DNA of 32,242 bases, taken from IMG/VR virus record IMGVR_UViG_3300010400_000235, positions 1 to 32,242 of that record. The stretch is one strand, 5' to 3'. Positions within the stretch are counted from its first letter, which is position 1. Each line of letters starts with the position of its first letter. Made by a program: the position numbers and the translations under genes. The notes under the pieces were generated by a model. The model was not told where the DNA came from, did not search any database, and worked only from the letters and a program-made list of their open reading frames with translations. The DNA is from a virus. Positions 11,442-32,242 of this stretch are shown in pieces.

Positions 11442-13507
11442 TGGGAACCGTTGTCGTCAGCCGTGACCCGGCGCTCGTCCGCTACGTCACGACGCAGGCC
11501 GTCACCATTACCGTGAGCGTCTACAACGACTCGGACGTGCTGACAGATCCGAGCGGAGGGGTCGTCCTCACGGTCACGCATCCGGTGGGTGTGGACACGA
11601 CGCCGACGCTCACGCACGGTAGCACTGGCGTCTATACAGCAACCGTCACGCTCGACGCCGACGGGCGCTGGATCTTCCACGCTCAGAGTGCGGGTGACAT
11701 CGTAGCCGCCGAGCGCCTGACTCTGGCTGTCGAGGATACCGGCTCGAGTGGGTCGCTTGCGGATGAGGAGGTCTTGCTTGCTGACTTGGCGGCCGTATCC
11801 GGGTCGCTGATGGGCAAGGGCCCGAATGGGTGGGCAGCATTCGCTTCCGACGTTTTCCCGGTCGAGTTATTCGGCGCCGTCGGCAACGGAACGACCGACG
11901 ACACCGCGGCGATTGCGGCTGCCATCACGGCGGCCTCAGCCAGCGGTGGCGTCGTCAAGTTCGCTGCAAAGGAATACTGCTACACCGCCCTGACGATCTC
12001 ATCGAACAACGTCGTCCTCGAGGGCACGGGCGACATGGGCGACACCGGCACCGTGCTCAGCAAGACGAGCACAACCGGCGATGGTATCACCATCACCTCG
12101 CAGAATTCTGGTGTCCGCAATCTGATGCTGCGACAGAAGTCGGCTGGTGCCCCCGCCACCGCTGGCTACGCGATCAAGTACAACGGCTGCTTCTGCGGGT
12201 TCTACGAGAACCTGCGCATCGCCGACATGTACGATGGCGTGCGCGTCACCGGATGCTTCGAGTTTCGCGGGCAGGGCACGCTCTGGCTCCGTGGCATGTT
12301 CGGAACGGTCGGGCTCGATGTCGATGGTATTTCCGGCTTCGCCCAGCGCGTCATCGCCGACAACCCCTACCAGGCTGCCACCGAGGGGAAGTCGCACGCG
12401 GCACGGCAGACGAGCCACGCGTACGTCGTCGGCGACACGTACACGAACAACGGCATCATTTTCCAAGTCACCGGAGCGGGTACGAGCTCGAGTGGCGGCG
12501 GCCCGACGACAGTCCCCGGGACGACCGTCGCGAATGCCACCACCACGAACGTCACCGACGGCACTGCGACCGTCCGCTTCATCGGCCGCACGATCGACTG
12601 GATCAAGTGCGGATCGAGCGTCGGTGGCTTCACCGTCCAGACCTGCGCTGTCCTGAACGGCTACCGCGCGTTCCGGCAGACCGGCGGCAACTGGTTCTTC
12701 TTCAACCACTTGGAGTTCGACCACCAGTGGAAGGACGCGGTCTCACTCGAGGGTGGCAGCGGGTTCCGAGCGACGAACGTCTGGATCTCGAGCGTGTTCA
12801 CCGGCGAGGGCATCACCGTCGGCGCCGGCTACTCTGGCGACATGCACGTCATCGGCGGACGGCTCTTCGGCGGCGCCGGTAAGGCGATCCTGTTGCAGCC
12901 GGGTCCCGTGAACTGCCACTTCTCGAACCTCAATATCGGCACGTGGGCAGGCACGTTCGGCTTCTGCACGGGCGACGTTGCCGGCGTGGGCCCCAAGCAC
13001 TGGTCGCTCACGAATTCGCGCCTCGAAGGGTGCTCCTACGGGATTGCGATCCTCGCTGCCGATACCGATTACTTCGTCGTCACCGGCAACGATGTGCAGG
13101 GCAACAGCACGCAGGGAATCGTTGACGGGAGCACAGCCAAGAACAAGGTCATTCGCGACAATCCCGGGTATGACCCGGTCGTGCGGCTCACCGGGCAGAC
13201 TGCCAACATCGGCGCCACGAGCCTCTACACGGGCAACCCAAGCGCGGGTCTTTACGAGGTCGATTGCTACGTCGAGGTGACGACGGTCGGAACGACCGGA
13301 ACGCTCGTGCTCACCATCGGCTACACGGATGCGGTCGGCGCGACCTCGCAAGCGACCACCGGGATCAACATCACAGGCACGGGCCGCGCGAGTGGTAGAT
13401 TCCTCGTGAAGGTCCAGGGCGCCGCGAACATCACGTACGCAACGAGCGGCATCACGACGGCGGGAACGCTTGCCTACAACGTGTCGATCGACGCGCGGCG
13501 GAAGTAG
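11441..13507 (+). CDS. Tailspike with pectate-lyase-type beta-helix
   Basis: A 688-residue receptor-binding or depolymerising tail protein. Residues 1-105 resemble an Ig-like virion-anchoring domain. FGAVGNGTTDDTAAIAAAI (about 144-162) is the classic start of the Pectate_lyase_3 (P22-tailspike-like) beta-helix, and many short Gly/Asn/Val turns follow to about residue 570. A Ser/Thr/Gly-rich insert occurs near 330-380. The last about 100 residues (GQTANIGATSLYTG, TTGTLVLTIGYTDAVGA) form a beta-rich cap that is common and exchangeable among phage tail proteins. Catalytic residues cannot be assigned. The start is taken at the ATG sharing a base with the adaptor stop, not the upstream TTG at 11414. 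Confidence 0.85.
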   Translation: MGTVVVSRDPALVRYVTTQAVTITVSVYNDSDVLTDPSGGVVLTVTHPVGVDTTPTLTHGSTGVYTATVTLDADGRWIFHAQSAGDIVAAERLTLAVEDTGSSGSLADEEVLLADLAAVSGSLMGKGPNGWAAFASDVFPVELFGAVGNGTTDDTAAIAAAITAASASGGVVKFAAKEYCYTALTISSNNVVLEGTGDMGDTGTVLSKTSTTGDGITITSQNSGVRNLMLRQKSAGAPATAGYAIKYNGCFCGFYENLRIADMYDGVRVTGCFEFRGQGTLWLRGMFGTVGLDVDGISGFAQRVIADNPYQAATEGKSHAARQTSHAYVVGDTYTNNGIIFQVTGAGTSSSGGGPTTVPGTTVANATTTNVTDGTATVRFIGRTIDWIKCGSSVGGFTVQTCAVLNGYRAFRQTGGNWFFFNHLEFDHQWKDAVSLEGGSGFRATNVWISSVFTGEGITVGAGYSGDMHVIGGRLFGGAGKAILLQPGPVNCHFSNLNIGTWAGTFGFCTGDVAGVGPKHWSLTNSRLEGCSYGIAILAADTDYFVVTGNDVQGNSTQGIVDGSTAKNKVIRDNPGYDPVVRLTGQTANIGATSLYTGNPSAGLYEVDCYVEVTTVGTTGTLVLTIGYTDAVGATSQATTGINITGTGRASGRFLVKVQGAANITYATSGITTAGTLAYNVSIDARRK

Positions 13508-13508
13508 C

Positions 13509-13889
13509 ATGCTCCCCGAGCAAGCCCAATTCCGCGTCACCTCACCCGCGCAGCTAGTCGAGGACTTGCAGCGCGAGCACCGGGCGATCCGAGAGGAGTT
13601 TCGCCTTGCCGGGAAGTTCTTCCAGCCCGCACCGGGCGCCGTGTACCCGCGAGCGTCGTCTTACCAGGCGGCGCCGTGGGACATGATTGTCCTCGTCGCG
13701 AATTGCGTCGTGACGTTCCCCCAGCTAAATCCCGAGTCAGCCGGCGCCCTAGTGACGTTCATCCTTCGCGCCGGGACGCTCACGGCGAAGAGCGACACGG
13801 GGGCCAAGATCCAAAACGCGTCGAGCGAGAACTTCACCAGCGTGGGGCGAGTCGTCTACCAGTTCGACGGGTTGGACTGGTGGCGATGA
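13509..13889 (+). CDS. Small fibre-tip-like or tail-associated protein
   Basis: A 126-residue protein starting one base after the tailspike stop. Residues 1-40 are helical and charged. The rest is beta (IVLVANCVVTFPQLNPESAG, GALVTFILRAGTLTAKSDTG) and ends VVYQFDGLDWWR. This strand pattern with a terminal D-G-x-x-W-W is seen at trimeric fibre tips and in small tail proteins. An upstream in-frame ATG at 13470 lies inside the tailspike gene and is not preferred. It may be a tailspike partner, but that is inference from adjacency. Confidence 0.55.
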   Translation: MLPEQAQFRVTSPAQLVEDLQREHRAIREEFRLAGKFFQPAPGAVYPRASSYQAAPWDMIVLVANCVVTFPQLNPESAGALVTFILRAGTLTAKSDTGAKIQNASSENFTSVGRVVYQFDGLDWWR

Positions 13890-13901
13890 CGCACGCCGCG
13901 A

Positions 13902-13908
13902 TGAATAC
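13902..13908 (+). promoter_or_regulatory. Possible -10 element before nozzle gene
   Basis: TGAATAC lies 9 bases before the GTG at 13918 in a 28-base intergenic gap. The spacing to the start codon is like that of the better promoters at 803, 4840 and 26976. No convincing -35 is visible, so this is weak. Confidence 0.2.
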
Positions 13909-13917
13909 GGTGCGCCC

Positions 13918-16900
13918 GTGAGCAAGATCCAGATCCCTTTCACGGCCGGCATGCACGGGGAAATGGACCCGGCGATGCTGCCGCAGGGTGCGCTCACGAG
14001 CATCGAAAACGGTCGGCTGCCGCGTGAGGGAGCGATCGTCAAGGCGCGTGGCACGACGACGGGCGACGTTTCCGTCACCACAACTTCGGCTGCCATCGCC
14101 GCGCCCATCGAGGGCTTCGCTGAATTCGGCACGCGTGAATGGCTCGCCGCAAATGGAAGGGTCTACGCTCGGGGCCAGTCAAGCGGGGATGCGTGGCAAG
14201 AGGTCGGCCGCACGCCGCGCTACTTCCCGGTCCGGGAGCGGTGGGCGCAGTTCGACGACACGCGCACAACGCTCGCCAGCGCGGCTCGAGCAGCCTGCGC
14301 GACGACGGGCGGGTACCTCGCTCTAACGTGGGCATCGACGGACGGAAGTACGTACAACTCGTTTCTGCGCGTCATGCGCCCAACCGGCGAGTGTGTTGCG
14401 ACGCGCGTCGCCGGAAGTCGCTACTTCGCGCAGCTGATTGCGGTCGGATCCTATTTTATTTGGGCTTACAAGAAGTCGGACGACTCCGAAATATTCGCGC
14501 GACGCTACGACCCGGTCACCAACACGCTCGGCTCTGAAGTGTCGCTCGAGTCTGGGATCGTGACTACCTCGGACGCATTTCGCGTTGCTGTGCATAGCGC
14601 GACGCAATGGTTCTATTGGCGTCGCGACTCCGTCGGCTCCGTCGGCTGGCAGCTGCGTGGCATCGACGCGTCACTGACTCAGGCGGATAGCGGCAACACA
14701 CCTTGCGCGAATCAGGTCGTCACGCGAATTCAGTCGCTCAGTACGGCTGACGGCGTCTACATGGTCTATGCCGACGACACGGCGACGATCGGCGGGGATT
14801 GCTTTTGGGTGCTATTCGAGCCGGATATGTCTGCGGAGATTGCGGACGGTACGGTTCTATCCGGATCGGACGTGGCCGAGTTCGGCATCATCGACCGCGG
14901 CAACAATTCCGTTTTCATCGTGTGTGGTACGTACGGTACCGGATCGGAACACTCCGTCGCGGCGGCTGTCGTCACATCAGCCGGAAGCTACTCATCGTCG
15001 AGCACTGCTCTGCGCATGGTCAAGATGGTGTCGCACCCGTTCGCTGCGACCACCACGGAGATCCGCATGTGGGTGCGAGTGGACAACAGCGTCGATCCTA
15101 CCGCGAACGTCTATGCGCTCGCGACGTTGCAGATGGGCAGCTCGATCGTGATGCAGCCTGAGTTGCTGCCTGATTCACGTCCGCCAAATGGCTTCGTTGA
15201 GCCGACGGAAGTGCTCACTGTGGGCGACTCGCTTTTCTTCCTCGGAAGCGTGGTCGTGCGCACCGGTCTGCGTCAAGGGCCGTTCAGCGGCGGCGGAGCG
15301 TTCGTCCCTGGCGTCACCGAGACTGCACCCGCGCTTGTGTTCTACGAGTACGAGGCGGCTTCTGGTTTTCGCGCTTCGGATGCAGCGGGCGCCGGGTACT
15401 GCTTCGGCGGCAGCGGGCTCGTGCTCCCGAGCGACCGGGCTGGAGTCTCCTCCTACACCGTCACGAATCCGACTGGGGTGGAGGACGGCTTTATGCGGCG
15501 CCCCCAGTGCTCGATGGCGGCGACAGCTGGCGCGGGGCTGACGAGCGGCGCGCTGTATCAAGCGTTCGTCGTGTTCGAGCGCATCGACACGGACATTCGT
15601 CGCATCCGCTCGGCGCCTTCGTCGCTGCTAACGGCGACACCTTCAGGCGGCAACTTGCAGGTGACGATTTCTATCCTCGTGCACCCGCGCACGGAGGGTG
15701 AAATATCTTCCCTCACGCACGCGACGGCGGCGCACGTCTACATGACTGCCGCGAACGGCAGCATCTTCTACCGCGTCACGCCGGACGACGGGGCTCCGCC
15801 TGGAGTGTCCAACACCACTACATTCACGTACGTCCAGACGACCGAGCCGGCGACAACGAAAGAGTTGCTCTACACGCTCGGCAACGTGATCCCGAACGCC
15901 CCGGCCCCCGCGCACCGGCACGGTACGGTTGCAGCCGGTCGCGGGTGGGCGTTCGGGCTTTTCGATCCGCGGATCGTCGAATGCTCGAAACTCATGGTCC
16001 CGAACGAGCCGCTCACCTGGACGCGTCACCCGGCGTTCCGCACGTTCGCGCCGATTGACGTGACGTGCGGCGAGGAGATCGACGGTAGCATCGTCCTGCT
16101 CGGTCCCGGCGGCGTCGCCCTGATGCCGTCGAGCGGGCCAAACAACCAGGGCTCTCCCGCGCTCTCTGCCCCGGTCGTCGTGAGTCGCGTCGGGTGTGTC
16201 AACCCGTCGAGCCTGCTGCGCTGTCCTCAGGGGCTGCTCTACGAAGGTCAGCGCGGCCTCTACCTGATGCCACGCGGCGGCGGGGAACCCATCTACATGG
16301 GCGCCGGCATGATGAGCGAGATTGCGCACGTGAGCTCCGCCGCGCTCGTCACGGTTGCGCCCTCCGCGGACCGCCTGCCCCAGCTGCTCGCTGCGTTCGC
16401 CTACGAGGACATCTTCGCCGTGCGGAAGGTCGCTTACCTTGACCCGGAGTACCAGCGCTGGGTTGGGTTTGACGGGCGCGAGTGCTCGGTGCTCGGCACG
16501 TTCGGCGCGCAGCTCGTTTCGGACAACTCGGCAGGGACGCAAATCGTTTCAGACGCGACGACGCAAGCGACCGGGACGAATCTCGAGACGACGATCACGA
16601 CCGGGCATATCTACCCGTTCGGCCCGCTCGGTCACGGCACGGTCAGCAAGGTTCAGCTGCTCTTCACGGTGAAGCAGCTTGGCGTTCGGCTCTACTGCGC
16701 GACGAGCATCGACGGCGGGCCATTCGACACGGCACGCGAGCTGATCATCCCGGACTCGACCTCCGACGGACTGCCCCTCACGATCGGCCAGCTCCACGCG
16801 GTCGAGTGGTCGGTTCGTGCGGACCGCGGCGGGCGGGAGCTTTCGTCGATTCGGTTTCGCTTTTCGGACCGGGCAAACGTGGCCGGCGATGGCGTCGCGT

Positions 16901-25323: not shown

Positions 25324-26967
25324 GTGGCAACGTTCCAAGCGGGCGTCCAGGCCGCAACCGATGTAAATCCGCTCGATGCGACGGGGACGGTAAGCTGGCT
25401 TGCGGGTGACGCGGGCGTCGTTTGGATCAAGAACGAGGGCGGCGACCGCACGGTCACCTCGTTCCAGAAATCGACGGGCAGCCCGGCGAACGCGTTCACG
25501 TTCCCAGCGGTGAGCGGGCAAACCAAGCTCGTCCACTCGAATACCGACCTCGTTGGGCATTTCGGCTATCTGCTGAACGCGAGCACGGATGCTTCATGCA
25601 CGATGCGGCTAACGCTGAACACGGCGGCGAGCTTCGTCAAGTTTCTGATGATCCAGTTTCGCCCAGCCGCGGGCGAGACGTTTGCTTTCGATGTCGCGAA
25701 GATCGGCGAGGCGGTAAGCGGCACCTCGATCTCATCCGGTAACGTAACTACGACGGGTGACACGGTCTCGGTGGGCAGCTTCGGCGAGTACACTGGCACC
25801 ACAACGAGTTCTGAACAAATCAACGGCGTCGCCGCGACCGAGCCGATGACGCCGCTCGCAGACGGAACCGTCTGGTATCGCATTATTACCGGCACGTTCA
25901 CCGGCGCAGCGACGGCCACGATCGGCAGCTCGTCCGAGTGGCTGTGCGGCGTCCTTTCGCTCAAGATCATCCGTTCGGCGATTGCGGCCACGTTCGATCC
26001 GAAGCCGGTGCGTGGACCGCGCGTCTTGGGCGAGCCGTTCGGCGTCGTCCCTGTGCTGCTCGGGCAGGGCATCCTCGTCAGCTCGACTGTCGCGGCGAAC
26101 CCGCTCACGGTCGCAGCGACTCAGGACGGGCTGACGGGTGCGGCGACGATGACGGTAGCCAACCCGATCACCGCGACCGTCGCCGGAAGCCAGAGCGGCC
26201 TGACGGGCGCGGCCACCGTCACGGAGACGATTCCCTCTACGGTCGCGGGTGTGCAGCCCGGCCTGACAGGCGCAGCAACCGTCACGATCGCCAACCCGAT
26301 CACCCTGGCGGCGGACGGTGTACTCCCGTCGCTCGTCGGCGCAGCATCCGTCTCCGAGGCGATCCCATCGACCGTTGCAGCCACGCAGGACGGGCTGACC
26401 GGTGCTGCCACCGTCAGCGTCGCCGGGCCGATCACCTCGACCGTTGCTGGTGAGCAGGACGGCCTGACGGCAGCGGCCAGCGTGGATATCTCACTTCTCG
26501 GAACGACCATGACGGTCGCTGGGGTGCAGCCGGGTCTGACCGGGGAGGCCGCCATGGTGGAAACGCTTCCGGCCACCGTCGCAGCGACGCAGGACGGCCT
26601 GACGGCGGCGGCAACCATGACCGAAACGATTCCAGCGACCGTTGCTGGCGTTCAGCCTGGACTCGTCGTGGCGGCTTCGGTGAACACTGCTTTCGAGCCG
26701 GTGACGGCTACGGTGGCGGCCACCCAAGCCGGCCTGACCGGCGCCGCAACGATGTCCGAAGCGCTGGGGATGAGTGTCGCGGCCACCCAGGACGCCCTGG
26801 TTGGCGCCGGCTCGGTCTCCTCGGCAGCGCCCATCACACTGGCAATCAACGCGACCCAGCCCGGCCTGGTGGGCAACGCGTCCGTCTCCTCTGACGTTGC
26901 CGGCGGGGGCGGCGGCGCTACTTCCCGCGGTCGGCGCCGGTCACGCTTCAAACCTGGATGGGCGTAG
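25324..26967 (+). CDS. Repeat protein with twelve 21-24 residue repeats
   Basis: A 547-residue protein from a GTG. Residues 1-215 look like a jelly-roll or carbohydrate-binding-type domain (FTFPAVSGQTKLVHSNTDLV; SCTMRLTLNTAASFVKFLMI; SSEWLCGVLSLKI). Residues 262-527 are twelve tandem repeats of 21-24 residues with core T-V-A-x-T-Q-x-G-L-T-G-A-A-T-V, most separated by E-T-I-P-S or A-N-P-I-T linkers. A basic tail (TSRGRRRSRFKPGWA) ends it. A beta-solenoid or extended fibre shaft would fit. It is the last large gene of the late operon, where accessory tail or surface proteins are placed. The repeats and domain order are seen; structure and role are inferred. Confidence 0.75.
   Translation: MATFQAGVQAATDVNPLDATGTVSWLAGDAGVVWIKNEGGDRTVTSFQKSTGSPANAFTFPAVSGQTKLVHSNTDLVGHFGYLLNASTDASCTMRLTLNTAASFVKFLMIQFRPAAGETFAFDVAKIGEAVSGTSISSGNVTTTGDTVSVGSFGEYTGTTTSSEQINGVAATEPMTPLADGTVWYRIITGTFTGAATATIGSSSEWLCGVLSLKIIRSAIAATFDPKPVRGPRVLGEPFGVVPVLLGQGILVSSTVAANPLTVAATQDGLTGAATMTVANPITATVAGSQSGLTGAATVTETIPSTVAGVQPGLTGAATVTIANPITLAADGVLPSLVGAASVSEAIPSTVAATQDGLTGAATVSVAGPITSTVAGEQDGLTAAASVDISLLGTTMTVAGVQPGLTGEAAMVETLPATVAATQDGLTAAATMTETIPATVAGVQPGLVVAASVNTAFEPVTATVAATQAGLTGAATMSEALGMSVAATQDALVGAGSVSSAAPITLAINATQPGLVGNASVSSDVAGGGGGATSRGRRRSRFKPGWA
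26107..26904 (+). repeat. Coding tandem repeats, 12 units of 63-72 bases
   Basis: DNA encoding the repeat region of the preceding gene. Units are 63, 69 or 72 bases with drifting sequence; the best-kept words encode ATQDGLTGAAT and AGVQPGLTG. Unit length differences are multiples of three, so selection keeps the frame. This is a protein repeat, not CRISPR or iterons. Confidence 0.9.
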
Positions 26968-26994: not shown

Positions 26995-27313
26995 TCGATT
27001 CTCACGGTTGGCGCTCGGCGGAGTGATCGCGGCGATGGTTGGCGGGGCGGCCGGCGGCGCCTGCTCTGGGGCGTCACAGCTACCGGCCGACGAGCGGGTG
27101 CGACTGGAGCTGATTGCGCTGCGCGTCGCGTGTGCCCGATGCCGAGAAGACGTGAGGTGTGCCGAGCAGCCCGAGCTGGACGCCGTCTGCGACGCGTTCA
27201 CCCCGCCACCTCCAGTCATCACGAGCGGTGACAGCGGTCCGCCGCTGGACGCTTGGAGCGGCCCGGGCGAGGGCAACGGCGTCCGGTCGCTCGGGGGAGC
27301 TCCGGGGCGGTGA
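26990..27313 (+). CDS. Putative secreted lipoprotein (lysis-type candidate)
   Basis: A 107-residue protein from the ATG after the -10 cassette. Signal-like N-terminus: Arg near the start, then LALGGVIAAMVGGAAGGAC, with Cys25 as a possible lipid-modified residue. The lipobox (G-G-A-C) is imperfect because position -3 is Gly. A Cys-rich middle (VACARCREDVRCAEQ) follows, then Pro/Gly/Ser-rich C-terminus (TPPPPVITSGDSGPP). Small outer-membrane lipoproteins next to a membrane protein occur in phage lysis (o-spanin-like) and superinfection exclusion, but neither is proven. An upstream start at 26774 would lie inside the repeat gene and is rejected. GTGA overlap with the next gene. Confidence 0.5.
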   Translation: MTRFSRLALGGVIAAMVGGAAGGACSGASQLPADERVRLELIALRVACARCREDVRCAEQPELDAVCDAFTPPPPVITSGDSGPPLDAWSGPGEGNGVRSLGGAPGR

Positions 27314-27495
27314 AGTCTCCGCGCGACATCGCCAGGGACCGTCGCGAACGGAACAGAGCGCGCGGGCTTTGCATCTGCGGCCGTCCACCACTGTCCGGCC
27401 GAAAGCAGTGCGCCAGTTGCCGCGCGTCGATGTACTGGGCCGGGCGGCGGTATCTCGCGTCACTGCGGGATGACTTGACAACCCGACCGGGTTAG
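27310..27495 (+). CDS. Small zinc-finger-like basic protein
   Basis: A 61-residue protein from GTG, coupled to the lipoprotein gene. It is Arg-rich (DIARDRRERNRARG), then CICGRPPLSGRKQCASCR gives Cys pairs (C-x-C...C-x2-C) with the spacing of a small zinc finger, followed by MYWAGRRYLA. Similar short R-rich C-x-C-G-x-P-P proteins are seen in phages as possible nucleic-acid binders. Its place in a late cluster of small genes is unusual; the function is unknown. Confidence 0.5.
   Translation: MKSPRDIARDRRERNRARGLCICGRPPLSGRKQCASCRASMYWAGRRYLASLRDDLTTRPG
27475..27493. promoter_or_regulatory. TTGACA beside a 14-base palindrome
   Basis: TTGACA at 27475-27480 is an exact -35 consensus and is immediately followed by AACCCG-AC-CGGGTT (27480-27493), a perfect short inverted repeat. 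No -10 occurs at 16-18 bases; the nearest, AATGAT at 27502, would need a 21-base spacer. It may be an operator or hairpin rather than a promoter. Confidence 0.25.
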
Positions 27496-27513
27496 TGGCC
27501 GAATGATCTTGAT

Positions 27514-27846
27514 TTGGCACACGTAGACGCCAGAGCCGCCGAAGCCCGCATGCTCCGCGCCGTGCGTGCCGCGCTGATGCCGTTCGACACGGACTTGGCA
27601 GACCTCGAGAAGCGGGCCAAGGCGCACGACGATCGAGCCAAAGCCCACGAGGAGAACGACGTGAACCGTTTCCTCCAGCTGCATCATGGTATGGCCGACC
27701 TGGAGCACCGACTCGAATTCGTGCTCAACATGATCACCCTGATGCGTGACGACATGCACGAGGGCTTCCAGCGACTCGGGGCGCGCATCGAGAAGAAAGA
27801 CCCGAACGAGGTCACGCCGCCGAGACGTGGGCGGAATGGCCGCTAG
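27514..27846 (+). CDS. Coiled-coil protein
   Basis: A 110-residue protein; TTG at 27514 is the longest start, and ATG at 27550 is an alternative that keeps the main helix. Residues 13-95 are a charged helix rich in Ala, Asp, Lys and His (DLADLEKRAKAHDDRAKAHE; LQLHHGMADLEHRLEFVLNM), which is typical of coiled coils. The C-terminus is basic (RRGRNGR). It has no membrane segment. It overlaps the following membrane-protein gene by 11 bases, so both could act together. Function unknown. Confidence 0.5.
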   Translation: MAHVDARAAEARMLRAVRAALMPFDTDLADLEKRAKAHDDRAKAHEENDVNRFLQLHHGMADLEHRLEFVLNMITLMRDDMHEGFQRLGARIEKKDPNEVTPPRRGRNGR

Positions 27847-28117
27847 CGATCGTCAACTCGAGCTCGAGAAGCTGAAGGTACGCGCCGAGCTGAAGTCCGC
27901 CGACCTTGAGGAGGACACGGGTCTCATCGAGCGGGAAGCCCTGTCCCGCGCGCCCAAGTCGTCCAGTCAGCCGCCGCGCGCCAAGTTCGTCCTGGCGCTA
28001 CTGAACGCGAAGCCGTCGTGGCAGATGGTGATCATCATCCTGGCGACGCTGGGCGCACTGTTCGGCGGCGGGTTGCTCAGACCGGCTTTTGACCATCTGA
28101 TGGGATGGGGGAAGTAG
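27836..28117 (+). CDS. Coiled-coil plus single-span membrane protein (holin-like candidate)
   Basis: A 93-residue protein. Residues 1-40 are charged and helical (LELEKLKVRAELKSADLEED). Residues about 67-86 (WQMVIIILATLGALFGGGLL) are one transmembrane segment, followed by a short tail. The order coiled coil then terminal span is like XhlA-type lysis-associated proteins and some small phage membrane proteins, so a lysis role is possible, but no endolysin is recognised nearby. An upstream in-frame start at 27746 lies inside the coiled-coil gene and is not preferred. It is the last rightward gene and runs 41 bases into the opposing operon. Confidence 0.5.
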   Translation: MAASDRQLELEKLKVRAELKSADLEEDTGLIEREALSRAPKSSSQPPRAKFVLALLNAKPSWQMVIIILATLGALFGGGLLRPAFDHLMGWGK

Positions 28118-28841
28118 CGCGCGACGCGCTAGCCTCCAGCTCCGCCACCCGCGCCCTGAGGTGGTCGCGTTCTTCTTCTGCCTCCTCGAGGTTTTGGCGC
28201 AGCCCATCGACGAGCAAGTTCAGGCGAGCGATCGTCTCCCCCGCCTCCTTCGCCGCCGGAGCGGGACGGTCGCCCAACCCGAGTTTGACCAAGTCCTCCC
28301 ATGATGTTGCGCCGGCTTCCCAGTTCTTCTTGACCTCTGCGTCACCGCACCCGTCGAGCAGGCAGGACAGCGCGTACTCACAACGCGGCGAGCAGTGGCG
28401 AACGTCTGTCCAGACGAAGTGCGGCGCGTCGCCGGTGACGGGTCCGCGGCAGTAGTTGCACGTGATCGCCGCCTCCTCCCCCGCCGGAGCGGGCTTGGCG
28501 GGTTGCTCTCCGGTTCGCTTCTTTGCGCAGTGCGGACACCACACCGTTTCCTCCGCCCACCCGCCGCCACATGACGCGCAGATATACCTCGGCTCTCCCA
28601 CTGGCGCGTCGCGGAGGGATTCGAGCACATAGACTGCGTGAGCGACGCCGCCACGAGTTGCGCCGTTTCCGCCATGAAACAGCAGGCGCTCGTGCTCTTT
28701 CTTGAGCGCCTCGATCGCCCTCTCGATCCCCCGCCGCTCGCCTGCTTTCTCGGCTTTCGCTATGGCTTCGCGCTCAGCTTTTTCGCGTTGCGCGCGTAGC
28801 AGGTTGGCGATCGGGTGTTCGTCGGTCGGCGGGGTGGTCAT
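28077..28841 (-). CDS. Two zinc-ribbon motifs plus coiled coil
   Basis: A 254-residue leftward protein, start ATG in an ATGA overlap with the gene before. Residues 10-55 are charged helix. CASCGGGWAEETVWCPHC (88-105) has C-x2-C-x10-C-x2-C spacing. Cys128, Cys131, Cys150 and Cys154 form a second C-x2-C-x18-C-x3-C site. Residues 200-238 are a leucine-zipper-like coiled coil (RLNLLVDGLRQNLEEAEEER). It is the last gene of the leftward operon and overlaps the rightward operon end. A nucleic-acid-binding or protein-bridging factor is plausible; no family is recognised. Confidence 0.6.
   Translation of the reverse strand: MTTPPTDEHPIANLLRAQREKAEREAIAKAEKAGERRGIERAIEALKKEHERLLFHGGNGATRGGVAHAVYVLESLRDAPVGEPRYICASCGGGWAEETVWCPHCAKKRTGEQPAKPAPAGEEAAITCNYCRGPVTGDAPHFVWTDVRHCSPRCEYALSCLLDGCGDAEVKKNWEAGATSWEDLVKLGLGDRPAPAAKEAGETIARLNLLVDGLRQNLEEAEEERDHLRARVAELEASASRATSPIPSDGQKPV
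28115..28131. terminator. GC hairpin at operon collision point (weak)
   Basis: TAGCGCG, loop CGA, then CGCGCTA forms a perfect 7-base stem that includes the stop codon of the last rightward gene. No T run follows on either strand, so it is not a canonical intrinsic terminator. It could slow polymerase or mark the boundary between opposing operons. Confidence 0.25.
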
Positions 28842-29038
28842 GGCCACGTACTCACCGTACGCCAGTTTGCCGTTGCGCTCGATGTGACAGCGACCGCGCC
28901 GCACACGTGACACCACATCACGTGCTTCTCACTTGTCTCGACTGTGCTCTCTGTGATGTCGAACGAGACGTGCTCGCCAGCGTGGTCGCACCGGCTCTGA
29001 GCCCATCGAACGATTCGTGAGAATATCCATTTCATCAT
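28838..29038 (-). CDS. Small zinc-ribbon protein
   Basis: A 66-residue protein with ATGA overlaps on both sides. A helical N-terminus (MMKWIFSRIVRWAQSR) is followed by CDHAGEHVSFDITE and WCHVCGAV, giving a C-x-H and C-x2-C pair arrangement that suggests one zinc ribbon. The short length and tight coupling suggest an adaptor or regulator. I do not recognise a named family. A longer frame starting upstream at 29161 lies inside the neighbouring gene and is rejected. Confidence 0.6.
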   Translation of the reverse strand: MMKWIFSRIVRWAQSRCDHAGEHVSFDITESTVETSEKHVMWCHVCGAVAVTSSATANWRTVSTWP

Positions 29039-29649
29039 TTGCAAAGCTCCTCGTACTTCCACTTGTATTCCTTCAGCTCCGCGTTCTCCCGCTCCAGCTC
29101 GGCGATGCGCTCGGACAGCGTGGCCCCGTTCCGCTTCGCCGCTTCCAGCGAGTCGCGCCAAAAGTCCACGTCGCGCTCCATCTCCTCGTTGCGCCGCCCG
29201 GCTAGTCCGAGGTCACTCTCAAGCTCGACGATGCGCTCTTTCTGTTTGCGAAAGAAGAACCACAAGTCGCGTTCGTTCTCCACGCCGCTCGTCGATTGCA
29301 CGTCGATGAAGGCGTCCAGACCTGACTCGAGCAGAGCAATCCGCTCCCTCGCCTTTCGCAACTCTCGCACCGACGCGTCCCACTCCCCGCGCAGAACATC
29401 CACCATGTTGAAGGCCGTCAGCGGCGTGTCTAGCTGCTCACCCAATGCCGAGCGCAGGTTCGCGCAAACCTCGGCTTCGCGCTGTTGAGCCTTGAGCAGC
29501 TCGGCGGCGGTGGATTCGGCGTCCAAGGTGTAGGCGAGCATTCGCGGGATGCCGGCCACGCAATCATCGTCCCAATGGACCATGCCGGATTGTTGCACCA
29601 GTCTGCGCATCTCCTCGTGCGTCGGCGTCGGCGGGTCAGGGGTCGTCAA
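29035..29649 (-). CDS. Long coiled-coil protein
   Basis: A 204-residue protein; a TTG start in a TTGA overlap with the gene upstream is chosen. Residues 1-45 are mixed. Most of 45-204 is a charged helix with heptad-like spacing (LLKAQQREAEVCANLRSALG; RELRKARERIALLESGLDAF; LSERIAELERENAELKEYKW). It ends with ELCK and overlaps the start of the next gene. No enzymatic motif. A scaffold or oligomerising partner for the small zinc proteins around it is possible. Confidence 0.55.
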   Translation of the reverse strand: MTTPDPPTPTHEEMRRLVQQSGMVHWDDDCVAGIPRMLAYTLDAESTAAELLKAQQREAEVCANLRSALGEQLDTPLTAFNMVDVLRGEWDASVRELRKARERIALLESGLDAFIDVQSTSGVENERDLWFFFRKQKERIVELESDLGLAGRRNEEMERDVDFWRDSLEAAKRNGATLSERIAELERENAELKEYKWKYEELCK

Positions 29650-29870
29650 GATGGCTTCTCCTCGAACGTGAGACCGGTCCAGCGCAGGCCGGTTTGGTCG
29701 CCGATGCGCATGAGCATCTCCTCGCGCTCGGCTGGTGTCATGCGCGCGTTGCGAGCCTTGAGCCGCTCGGGTACGGGCATGGTTCCGTTGCACTCGGGAC
29801 ACGCGGCCTTGTCGGAACACGGGCACGCACCGAGCGGGCCTTCGATGCGAGGCTGGTCAGGGGTCGGCAT
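29646..29870 (-). CDS. Small Cys-cluster protein
   Basis: A 74-residue protein. The start is uncertain: ATG at 29870 has GGAG 9 bases upstream, while 29876 is an in-frame alternative. CPCSDKAACPEC near residues 15-26 forms a C-x-C...C-x2-C cluster, probably zinc. The remainder is helical (MTPAEREEMLMRIGD). It overlaps the previous gene by 14 bases and the next by 4. Function unknown. Confidence 0.5.
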   Translation of the reverse strand: MPTPDQPRIEGPLGACPCSDKAACPECNGTMPVPERLKARNARMTPAEREEMLMRIGDQTGLRWTGLTFEEKPS

Positions 29871-30486
29871 CTTCATTCTCTCCGTGCACCGGGCAAGGCG
29901 AGTCGCCCTCTTCCCAGTGGCATTTGCAGCCAATCGTTCGCTCCACGTCCGGGTCTGCGAACGCCGGGGCTGGCGAGAGGGCGGCGAGCATGTCTTGCCC
30001 GAACGCGACGATGGCGTTTTCCTGGTGCGAGTCGGCTCCTTTGTCGCGGGACTTTCGCAGCGCCGCGCCCAGTGCCGCCTCTATCTCCTTGCGCGTGAAC
30101 GACGGCGGCTGCCGATGAGCAATCCGCAACTGGTCAACATCGAAATCCCACTCGGAACGATCGCGTTCATCCTCCAGGCCGACGGTTGCCCCGGGGCCCT
30201 TGCCGCACCACTTCACGATGCCAGCGACGCGCGGCTTACCGTTCGGTAGCGACTCGACGTAGTCACCAGTTTTGAAGAGTGGCTGAGCATCCGCCGGGGC
30301 GGGCGAGAGGGGGACGTACTCAAGAATTCGTTCGCGACACCACGAGTTCACGGTCATGCGGTATGGCGCCTGCCAGTCCGTAGCTGGGCCACGGTCCAAC
30401 GTGCTCATAACTCGCGTTTCGATCCACTCACCCGGAGCGTCTGCGCCACGGGCATACTGCTCGACACGAACGAAAACAGGTGTCAC
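29857..30486 (-). CDS. SH3-barrel-like protein with Cys/His tail
   Basis: A 209-residue protein from a GTG in a GTGA overlap. The central segment TGDYVESLPNGKPRVAGIVK with WDFDVDQLRI looks like an SH3-like or KOW-type barrel. A helix follows (FTRKEIEAALGAALRKSRDK). The C-terminus CKCHWEEGDSPCPVHG is a possible zinc site (C-x-C-H...C-x2-H). Two Pro/Ala linkers (LSPAPA) occur. A nucleic-acid or protein interaction role is possible; no family is recognised. Confidence 0.55.
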   Translation of the reverse strand: MTPVFVRVEQYARGADAPGEWIETRVMSTLDRGPATDWQAPYRMTVNSWCRERILEYVPLSPAPADAQPLFKTGDYVESLPNGKPRVAGIVKWCGKGPGATVGLEDERDRSEWDFDVDQLRIAHRQPPSFTRKEIEAALGAALRKSRDKGADSHQENAIVAFGQDMLAALSPAPAFADPDVERTIGCKCHWEEGDSPCPVHGENEDADP

Positions 30487-30842
30487 TTCCGCCTCCCGCC
30501 CGCGCGCTTCTTCGGGGGCGTGACGGCTTTCGGGACCCGGCCGTCCGCCACGATCAATTCGAGCGCGTCGTGTAGCCGCTTGTTTTCGTACGCGCCACGG
30601 GCCAGCGGGGTTAGGCGCTGCTCCAGGTACGCGGCCACCTCAGCGCTCGTCGAGAGCGCGGCAATGAACGATGCACAGCTCACGGCGATGCTGTGCACCA
30701 TGCGAGGGCCGTATTCCGCGGACTCCTTGTCGCGCATGCGCTGGAGTTCTGTCCCGACCGCTCTCATTGATTTTTCGTGATTGCTGGTCGTGTGCTTCGT
30801 TGAGCTGCAGTGCCAGCATGGGGCGAAGGGCGAGCTGCTCAT
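30483..30842 (-). CDS. Small protein with N-terminal CWHC motif
   Basis: A 119-residue protein, start ATG in an ATGA overlap. SPFAPCWHCSSTKHTTSNH (residues 4-22) has a Cys pair and two His that could bind one metal. Residues 25-100 are helical (ASFIAALSTSAEVAAYLEQR). The C-terminus is very basic (PPKKRAGGRRK), suggesting nucleic-acid contact. Function unknown. Confidence 0.55.
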   Translation of the reverse strand: MSSSPFAPCWHCSSTKHTTSNHEKSMRAVGTELQRMRDKESAEYGPRMVHSIAVSCASFIAALSTSAEVAAYLEQRLTPLARGAYENKRLHDALELIVADGRVPKAVTPPKKRAGGRRK

Positions 30843-31123
30843 CGCCCGCCCGCCCCCTCGCTCGGCGCGTCGAGATTCGTGTCGTCGCTGCACGCCTCAA
30901 AGAACTCGGTGACAGCATTCATCGCGTGTTCGGTCGTCCACCATTCGCGATCGTGCTCACGAAGCCTGTTGCGCAACGGCTCTTGCTCTATGGTGACCGG
31001 ATGCTGCGCTTCCTGCTTGTGAAAGTAGTGGCGCAGCGCCGCGAGAACGCTACGGGCGGAGTCGCGCTCTTTCTCCGCCACGGTTGCCCGGGACTTCCAG
31101 TGTTCTAGGTCGAATTCGCTCAC
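30839..31123 (-). CDS. Hypothetical helical protein
   Basis: A 94-residue protein from a GTG in a GTGA overlap with the large upstream gene. Mostly charged helix (LEHWKSRATVAEKERDSARS; LRNRLREHDREWWTTEHAMN). One cysteine, no metal site. It resembles short accessory proteins common in phage leftward operons. No family is recognised. Confidence 0.5.
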   Translation of the reverse strand: MSEFDLEHWKSRATVAEKERDSARSVLAALRHYFHKQEAQHPVTIEQEPLRNRLREHDREWWTTEHAMNAVTEFFEACSDDTNLDAPSEGAGGR

Positions 31124-32242
31124 GGCTCACAACTCTCCGCGTCGAGGTACGCGTCTTCGGGGAATGCCTTCGGGTGTGATGCCTTGCTAGGCAACGGCGC
31201 CGACAGCTGAGCCAGCGCCTGATGATGCTTGCTCGGCATCGCAGCCTTCAGCCTCGCAGCGTCACGCGACGGGATGGCCTTCTCGCGCTGCTCGTCGAGG
31301 TAGGCGCGGTCGAGGAAGCCGGAGGGGTCGAGCTTGGGATTCTCGGCTGGATAGAACGTGTTGTGTGCCGGCCCTTCGTTCATCGGCGGCGGCCTGAACA
31401 CTGGCGTAACTTGCTCCCCACCGGCCGTGGCTGGCGGAAGGGGGACGGTGGTCCAGTCGATGTCGGCCAGTTCGACCTGACAGCCGTGCGGCGGCAACGT
31501 CTCGCGGTCTGGCGCGATTCGCTCGAATTTGCCAGAGATGTCCCACTTTTCGTGCCCACGAATCCAGCCGCCGCGGTTCGTCGCCGGTGACAGAAGTCGG
31601 AACCGGTACGTGTTTTCGGTCGCTCGATTGACGGACCACTCGGTACCCGCCGGCAACGTCTCCGGCAGCACATCAGGCTGCGTCCCGTAGAACCGAGCCT
31701 CTCCCGCCCGTGCCGCTTCAGTCGGGGCGCGGCGGATGAGGCGGAGGGACTCGGGCGCGCAAAGGATTCCGCAGATTTCCACGCAACCCGTGTGCTCACC
31801 CATCGTGACGCCAGTGCGCACGACTCGCCCAGCCGAGCGATAGACCTCGGCTTCCGCGCTGCCCAGTCGGTGCCACGTCAGAACGTTTATGCCGCTTGCC
31901 TCGTCACCCGCCGCGAACACGTGCGCCGGCTCGGGAGGGGGCGGCGGTTGGATGGGGACGGTGTCCCAATTCACGTCTTCCGGCTCGAATCCACCAGTGG
32001 CCGTGGATGTGCACTCATCACCGCTCAGGCCGCTGCGGTATCGCCGGGAGCAGCCGTAGCGTGGGGATCCGCCGTAAACATAGCTCAGCATCAGAGGCTC
32101 GAGAGCCACGTACCCATCGCCTAGGGCTGTCCCCGCCGGCAACGTCTCCGGCAGCACATCAGGCTGCGTCCCGTAGAACCGAGCCTCTCCCGCCCGTGCC
32201 GCTTCAGTCGGGGCGCGGCGGATGAGGCGGAGCGAGGACAGC
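31120..32242 (-). CDS. Partial protein with duplicated modules (5' end outside window)
   Basis: At least 373 residues; the frame stays open to the right edge, so the start is missing. Two copies of a module are visible: an identical stretch beginning LRLIRRAPTEAARAGEARFY and continuing through TQPDVLPETLPAG, each followed by a diverged region and then a W-D/T-T-V-P block (NWDTVPIQPPPPP; DWTTVPLPPATAG). The identical part is a 101-base exact DNA repeat (31646-31746 and 32132-32232). The N-terminal visible copy contains Cys-rich text (GCSRRYRSGLSGDEC). The C-terminal 90 residues are charged and helical. Function unknown. Confidence 0.6.
   Translation of the reverse strand, partial: LSSLRLIRRAPTEAARAGEARFYGTQPDVLPETLPAGTALGDGYVALEPLMLSYVYGGSPRYGCSRRYRSGLSGDECTSTATGGFEPEDVNWDTVPIQPPPPPEPAHVFAAGDEASGINVLTWHRLGSAEAEVYRSAGRVVRTGVTMGEHTGCVEICGILCAPESLRLIRRAPTEAARAGEARFYGTQPDVLPETLPAGTEWSVNRATENTYRFRLLSPATNRGGWIRGHEKWDISGKFERIAPDRETLPPHGCQVELADIDWTTVPLPPATAGGEQVTPVFRPPPMNEGPAHNTFYPAENPKLDPSGFLDRAYLDEQREKAIPSRDAARLKAAMPSKHHQALAQLSAPLPSKASHPKAFPEDAYLDAESCEP
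31646..31746. repeat. 101-base exact direct repeat, copy 1
   Basis: Identical to 32132-32232, 486 bases (162 codons) apart, so in frame within the leftward gene. Exact identity within otherwise diverged modules points to recent duplication, gene conversion or strong recombination, or to an assembly effect, since copy 2 ends only 10 bases from the window edge. Confidence 0.95.
32132..32232. repeat. 101-base exact direct repeat, copy 2
   Basis: Second copy of the repeat at 31646-31746. It stops 10 bases before the window ends, a common place for a short-read contig to break. Confidence 0.95.

Follow-up and report, generated by a model that had tools for sequence, protein, structure and literature searches.

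The 32,242-base window analysed here, which is the entire IMG/VR virus record IMGVR_UViG_3300010400_000235, is filled at its right end (28077-32242) by eight consecutive minus-strand ORFs, g1 to g8. On balance, we consider them to be the promoter-distal, interchangeable accessory cassette of a leftward early-type operon, whose proteins would act separately. We lean towards this reading because a relative carries a non-homologous leftward operon in the matching place. The operon, its coupling signals, its enrichment in cysteine and the matching operon position in this apparently complete relative were observed directly; an early, host-directed role is plausible by analogy, given the position in the relative and the precedent of the exo-xis region in phage lambda. 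This assigns a place and a plausible role to eight genes from a little-known phage group that are ordinary in kind and orphan in content. The comparison further suggests that members of this group retain a leftward operon behind their lysis genes and swap its content wholesale, e.g., recombination enzymes in one member and zinc-site/coiled-coil orphans in another. Host-directed phage proteins have earlier been found in such cassettes, e.g., Orf73 of lambda (PMC9239242).

Organization of the leftward operon

The features of the region, in the order of leftward transcription, are the following.

31120..32242, minus strand: g1, 5′-incomplete, at least 373 aa, repeat-containing and proline-rich, without a clear zinc site
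32129..32235: copy 2 of a 107-nt direct repeat, within g1, 98% identical to copy 1 and 486 nt away from it
31643..31749: copy 1 of the 107-nt direct repeat, within g1
30839..31123, minus strand: g2, 94 aa, GTG start in a GTGA overlap, possible short coiled coil
30483..30842, minus strand: g3, 119 aa, ATG start in an ATGA overlap, CWHC-x4-H-x4-H motif
29857..30486, minus strand: g4, 209 aa, GTG start in a GTGA overlap, CKCH...CPVH at the C-terminus
29646..29870, minus strand: g5, 74 aa, overlapping g4 by 14 nt, CPC...CPEC motif
29035..29649, minus strand: g6, 204 aa, TTG start in a TTGA overlap, C-terminal coiled coil
28838..29038, minus strand: g7, 66 aa, ATG start in an ATGA overlap, CDH...CHVC motif
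28077..28841, minus strand: g8, 254 aa, ATG start in an ATGA overlap, CASC...CPHC and CNYC...CSPRC motifs
27833..28117, plus strand: convergent gene whose product has one hydrophobic, membrane-like segment (by eye), overlapping the 3′ end of g8 by 41 nt

The preliminary description had eight genes joined mostly by NTGA overlaps in a coupled leftward operon. All eight ORFs are in place, with stops, in order, at 31120, 30839, 30483, 29857, 29646, 29035, 28838 and 28077; g1 is nevertheless incomplete at its 5′ end, since the record stops at 32242. Six of the seven junctions (g1/g2, g2/g3, g3/g4, g5/g6, g6/g7 and g7/g8) are 4-nt NTGA overlaps, reading GTGA, ATGA, GTGA, TTGA, ATGA and ATGA in this order, and the g4/g5 overlap measures 14 nt, or 20 nt with an earlier ATG. 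Such 4-nt junctions are found at only 6 of the 25 junctions that we counted ourselves among the rightward genes in the contig gene list (Fisher P = 0.006). A purine run resembling a Shine-Dalgarno sequence lies upstream of every start (by eye). When all six frames were scored with codon usage derived from the long structural genes, the own frame came out best for all eight genes, and GC at the third codon position ranges from 0.70 to 0.82. Spurious ORFs were considered and rejected, given how uniformly the genes show coding signal and coupling. One co-transcribed and translationally coupled unit, as proposed, is supported by these overlaps and coding signals together with the position of the relative's operon. 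No sigma-70-like promoter was found in 27000-32242, and the promoter of the operon is expected outside the window; Rfam and tRNA scans were empty.

The flanks of the two repeat copies in g1 diverge and copy 2 is therefore not simply cut by the contig end; the pattern suggests module shuffling inside the gene. The parts of g1 between the repeats share only a DxxWxTVPxPP-like motif. At the other end of the cassette, the convergent gene is holin-like by position and anatomy, and its product shows a weak similarity (z = 3.4) to its positional counterpart in the relative.

Cysteine/histidine motifs and coiled coils

Paired Cys/His motifs occur in five of the eight proteins (g3, g4, g5, g7 and g8), confirming the initial count of at least five. 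Cysteine makes up 2.6% of g1-g8 and 0.65% of 21 late proteins, a four-fold enrichment (P = 2e-9), and a CxxC, CxC or CxxH knuckle is present in five of the eight proteins versus one of the 21 late proteins (P = 0.003). The arrangement of the motifs is only mildly better than in shuffled sequences for single proteins (P 0.03-0.2), with a pooled P of 0.006. Several of the eight proteins are likely candidates for zinc binding at four Cys/His ligands.

The claim of three or more coiled coils is borderline. With a heptad-pattern score, which in addition credits charged residues at positions other than a/d and was devised after seeing the result of a cruder hydrophobic-moment test, g6 and g8 are strong coiled coils (0/400 shuffles), whereas g2 and g3 are weaker (P about 0.01). 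The earlier hydrophobic-moment test gave P = 0.003 for g8, 0.03 for g2 and 0.28 for g6. In g8, an N-terminal helix is followed by two Cys pairs-of-pairs and then by the C-terminal coiled coil. AlphaFold models of g8 (pLDDT 54, with low confidence at the Cys sites) and g4 (pLDDT 39) did not reach the quality needed to search for similar folds.

Homology searches

As the preliminary description had it, none of the eight proteins matches a known phage function: no match at threshold was obtained in Pfam, PHROGs, NCBIfam or PADLOC, nor by tblastn of all eight against 50,697 phage records. Scans of 2.9 million viral contigs with g8, g4, g1 and a concatenate of g3, g7, g2 and g6 revealed no relative; these pattern-based scans detect close relatives only and could miss distant homologues, and the search for g5 homologues covered the phage records only. 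One of these contig scans returned a matching stretch without a distinct locus, presumably the window's own record. A search for the same gene order elsewhere, suggested at the outset, found no conserved order in the viral contigs or in the 50,697 phage records. We found no paralogy among g1-g8. The PADLOC profiles of anti-phage defence gave nothing beyond weak matches to coiled coils or matches of low score (13-14 bits), and family profiles would miss orphan anti-defence proteins.

Several candidate similarities were discarded. The match of the g1 repeat to an NCBIfam head-tail joining protein covers 27 residues and scores 22 bits, below the 25-bit cut-off. No stretch of g8 passes alone in its phmmer matches to PRDM9 zinc fingers, which we took as composition, and the weak Pfam matches of g6 to ATG16 and CENP-F were taken as generic coiled coil. 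Between g1 and a 101-aa protein of a distant relative (G003, see below) there is a marginal, proline-rich similarity, with E = 0.04 in a tiny database and z = 6.8 among about 600 pairs, which was not accepted as homology.

Related phages and their leftward arms

The source phage is very divergent, its terminase, portal and capsid all being strongly diverged in sequence. Its portal reaches PHROG 156 at 4e-5, the capsid has no match among the phage records, and alignments of capsid and portal against genome contigs found nothing. The group is almost absent from databases, and we know of no cultured member. Four relatives were recovered in IMG/VR, two through the capsid (IMGVR_UViG_3300045977_000165 and 3300045940_000101; 63%) and two through the portal (portal 40-45%).

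The first of them, IMGVR_UViG_3300045977_000165 (loci L003/L004/L005; hereafter the reference relative), has a capsid 63% and a portal 53% identical to those of the window. Both ends of its 40,198 bases consist of the same 127 bases, and this exact terminal repeat is consistent with a circular assembly and with a genome that is apparently complete at about 40,071 bases (about 40.07 kb). A leftward operon lies at 12392-15744, after endolysin- and holin-like genes (named by eye from their anatomy), and its genes, read in the direction of transcription, specify a protein of 112 aa, a zinc-ribbon-like protein of 73 aa, a further protein of 101 aa, a fusion of PD-(D/E)XK and AAA_24, a DUF669 single-stranded DNA-binding protein (SSB) and a 98-aa protein. 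In phage HK620, the DUF669 protein adjoining Sak4 is an SSB (PMC5928155), and the AAA_24 beside DUF669 in the reference relative resembles this Sak4-SSB recombination pair (PMC5928155). Beyond the operon, a divergent, rightward gene for a Cro/YdaS-like HTH protein is followed by integrase and DnaB genes, which are rightward too.

The operons of the window and of the reference relative share the strand, the place after presumed lysis genes, the convergence on these genes and the overlapping of their own genes. They differ in length (at least 4.2 kb in the window, about 3.35 kb in the relative) and have no homologous gene, as tblastn of g1-g8 against the relative's operon gave no match, so that the shared position is the only link between them. 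Recombination enzymes are recognizable in the relative's operon and absent from the visible part of the window's; in particular, no AAA_24 ATPase next to a DUF669 SSB, the mark of the Sak4/DUF669 pair, was matched among g1-g8. The coiled-coil/membrane genes preceding the relative's operon have a layout like that of window positions 27514-28117, similar in kind but not clearly homologous.

In G003, a second, more distant relative, a leftward gene pair faces a divergent HTH gene upstream of replication genes, and a leftward arm with exchangeable content thus seems to recur in the phage group. A leftward gene of G003 (L011:2-889, minus strand), at the contig edge, ends in a long array of GTATAG-type amino-acid repeats. 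A small gene of G003/G004 is comparable to the cassette genes: it lies in a variable block, before the terminase, within this same group of phages, and its short product (101 aa, CDAC...CVVC) has Cys pairs and a coiled-coil-like stretch. It differs from g1-g8 in place and strand, and its product is the one with the marginal similarity to g1 described above.

Comparison with the exo-xis region of lambda

The exo-xis region of lambda (orf61, orf63, orf60a, orf73, ea22 and ea8.5) consists of small genes, mostly without a known family, that are driven from pL, are among the earliest transcribed and are dispensable (PMC10834534, PMC8614690, PMC9239242). Ea22 is a coiled-coil tetramer, Ea8.5 a homeodomain/zinc-finger protein and Orf73 a C4-zinc regulator that binds RNA polymerase (PMC10834534, PMC8614690, PMC9239242) and reprograms host transcription (PMC9239242). 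The region is an accessory part of the early operon near recombination genes (PMC10834534, PMC8614690).

Like exo-xis, g1-g8 form a leftward cluster of small genes, mostly without a known family, that mixes zinc-site and coiled-coil proteins. The genes of the window cluster are coupled, recombination genes linked to a leftward operon appear only in the reference relative, the cluster adjoins lysis genes, and its promoter side lies outside the contig. Sequence homology is lacking: no homologue of orf60a, orf61, orf63, orf73 or ea22 was found among g1-g8 in Pfam, PHROGs and NCBIfam or by tblastn of the 50,697 phage records. There is likewise no protein of the TraR/DksA type to which Orf73 belongs, as the zf-dskA_traR profile (Pfam, NCBIfam) matches none of the eight and no DxxDxA was seen by eye near the start of g3, g4, g5, g7 or g8. 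By analogy, g1-g8 resemble exo-xis in layout and style, rather than being members of it.

Possible functions of g1-g8

As an accessory cassette, g1-g8 would converge on the late and lysis genes, would be expressed early in infection and would have their proteins made together through translational coupling. These proteins would most likely act separately as small, presumably zinc-binding or coiled-coil adaptors that may contact host proteins of transcription, replication or stress responses, in a way comparable to the exo-xis products. Several points count against this interpretation: g1-g8 have no homologue in the relative's operon, no sigma-70-like promoter was seen in 27000-32242, the late-side neighbours are not clearly homologous between the two phages, and the operon's promoter-proximal part, along with any genes for recombination, falls outside the contig. 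One could also imagine that g1-g8 are themselves a highly diverged DNA recombination/replication operon equivalent to that of the reference relative, with g4 or g8 binding nucleic acid. Place and strand do match the relative's PDDEXK-Sak4/DUF669 operon, and a DNA-binding role would be in keeping with the zinc-ribbon-like character of g7 and g8, but the ATPase, nuclease and SSB families have no match in g1-g8, gene sizes and order do not correspond, and tblastn detected nothing shared, which leaves this explanation unlikely, though worth keeping in mind. We give less credit still to the idea that g1-g8 chiefly control the choice between lysis and lysogeny in a temperate phage, with effects like those of Ea22/Orf63. 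The integrase and Cro-like HTH genes beside the leftward operon of the apparently complete relative, as well as the activity of the lambda exo-xis genes, point in this direction; against it, no integrase or repressor was seen in the gene list of the window, which does not cover the corresponding part of the genome, and the exo-xis proteins have no homology to g1-g8.

The preliminary description had imagined the eight products as one zinc/coiled-coil complex for host takeover, transcription control or anti-defence. The strong co-translation signals, the grouping of several zinc-site-like proteins and the coiled coils of g6 and g8 would fit such an assembly, but phage genes of unrelated function commonly overlap this tightly, the eight proteins show no paralogy, and neither a homologue nor a conserved order was encountered in the phage records or, within the sensitivity of the scans, in the 2.9 million viral contigs. 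A single eight-protein complex is unsupported, nothing that we found pointing for or against it, and we regard it as improbable; its stronger form, a new multi-subunit zinc-site/coiled-coil complex that reprograms the host through RNA polymerase or replication, appears more improbable again.

Other features of the contig

The first 124 nt of the contig (1-124) form a perfect palindrome, with two 62-nt arms and no loop, and a T run comes next. A fold-back artefact of assembly or library preparation, or else a natural hairpin-type DNA end, may explain the palindrome, which is not present at the ends of the relatives examined. A late protein of 547 aa (25324-26967) contains about a dozen degenerate VAxTQxGLTGAATV-type repeats and then a Gly/Arg-rich tail. 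Finally, positions 817-1008 encode a small Fis-type HTH protein (HTH_8, 2e-7) that resembles, by eye, the product of a 59-aa gene of G003/G004 (L011:4112-4291).
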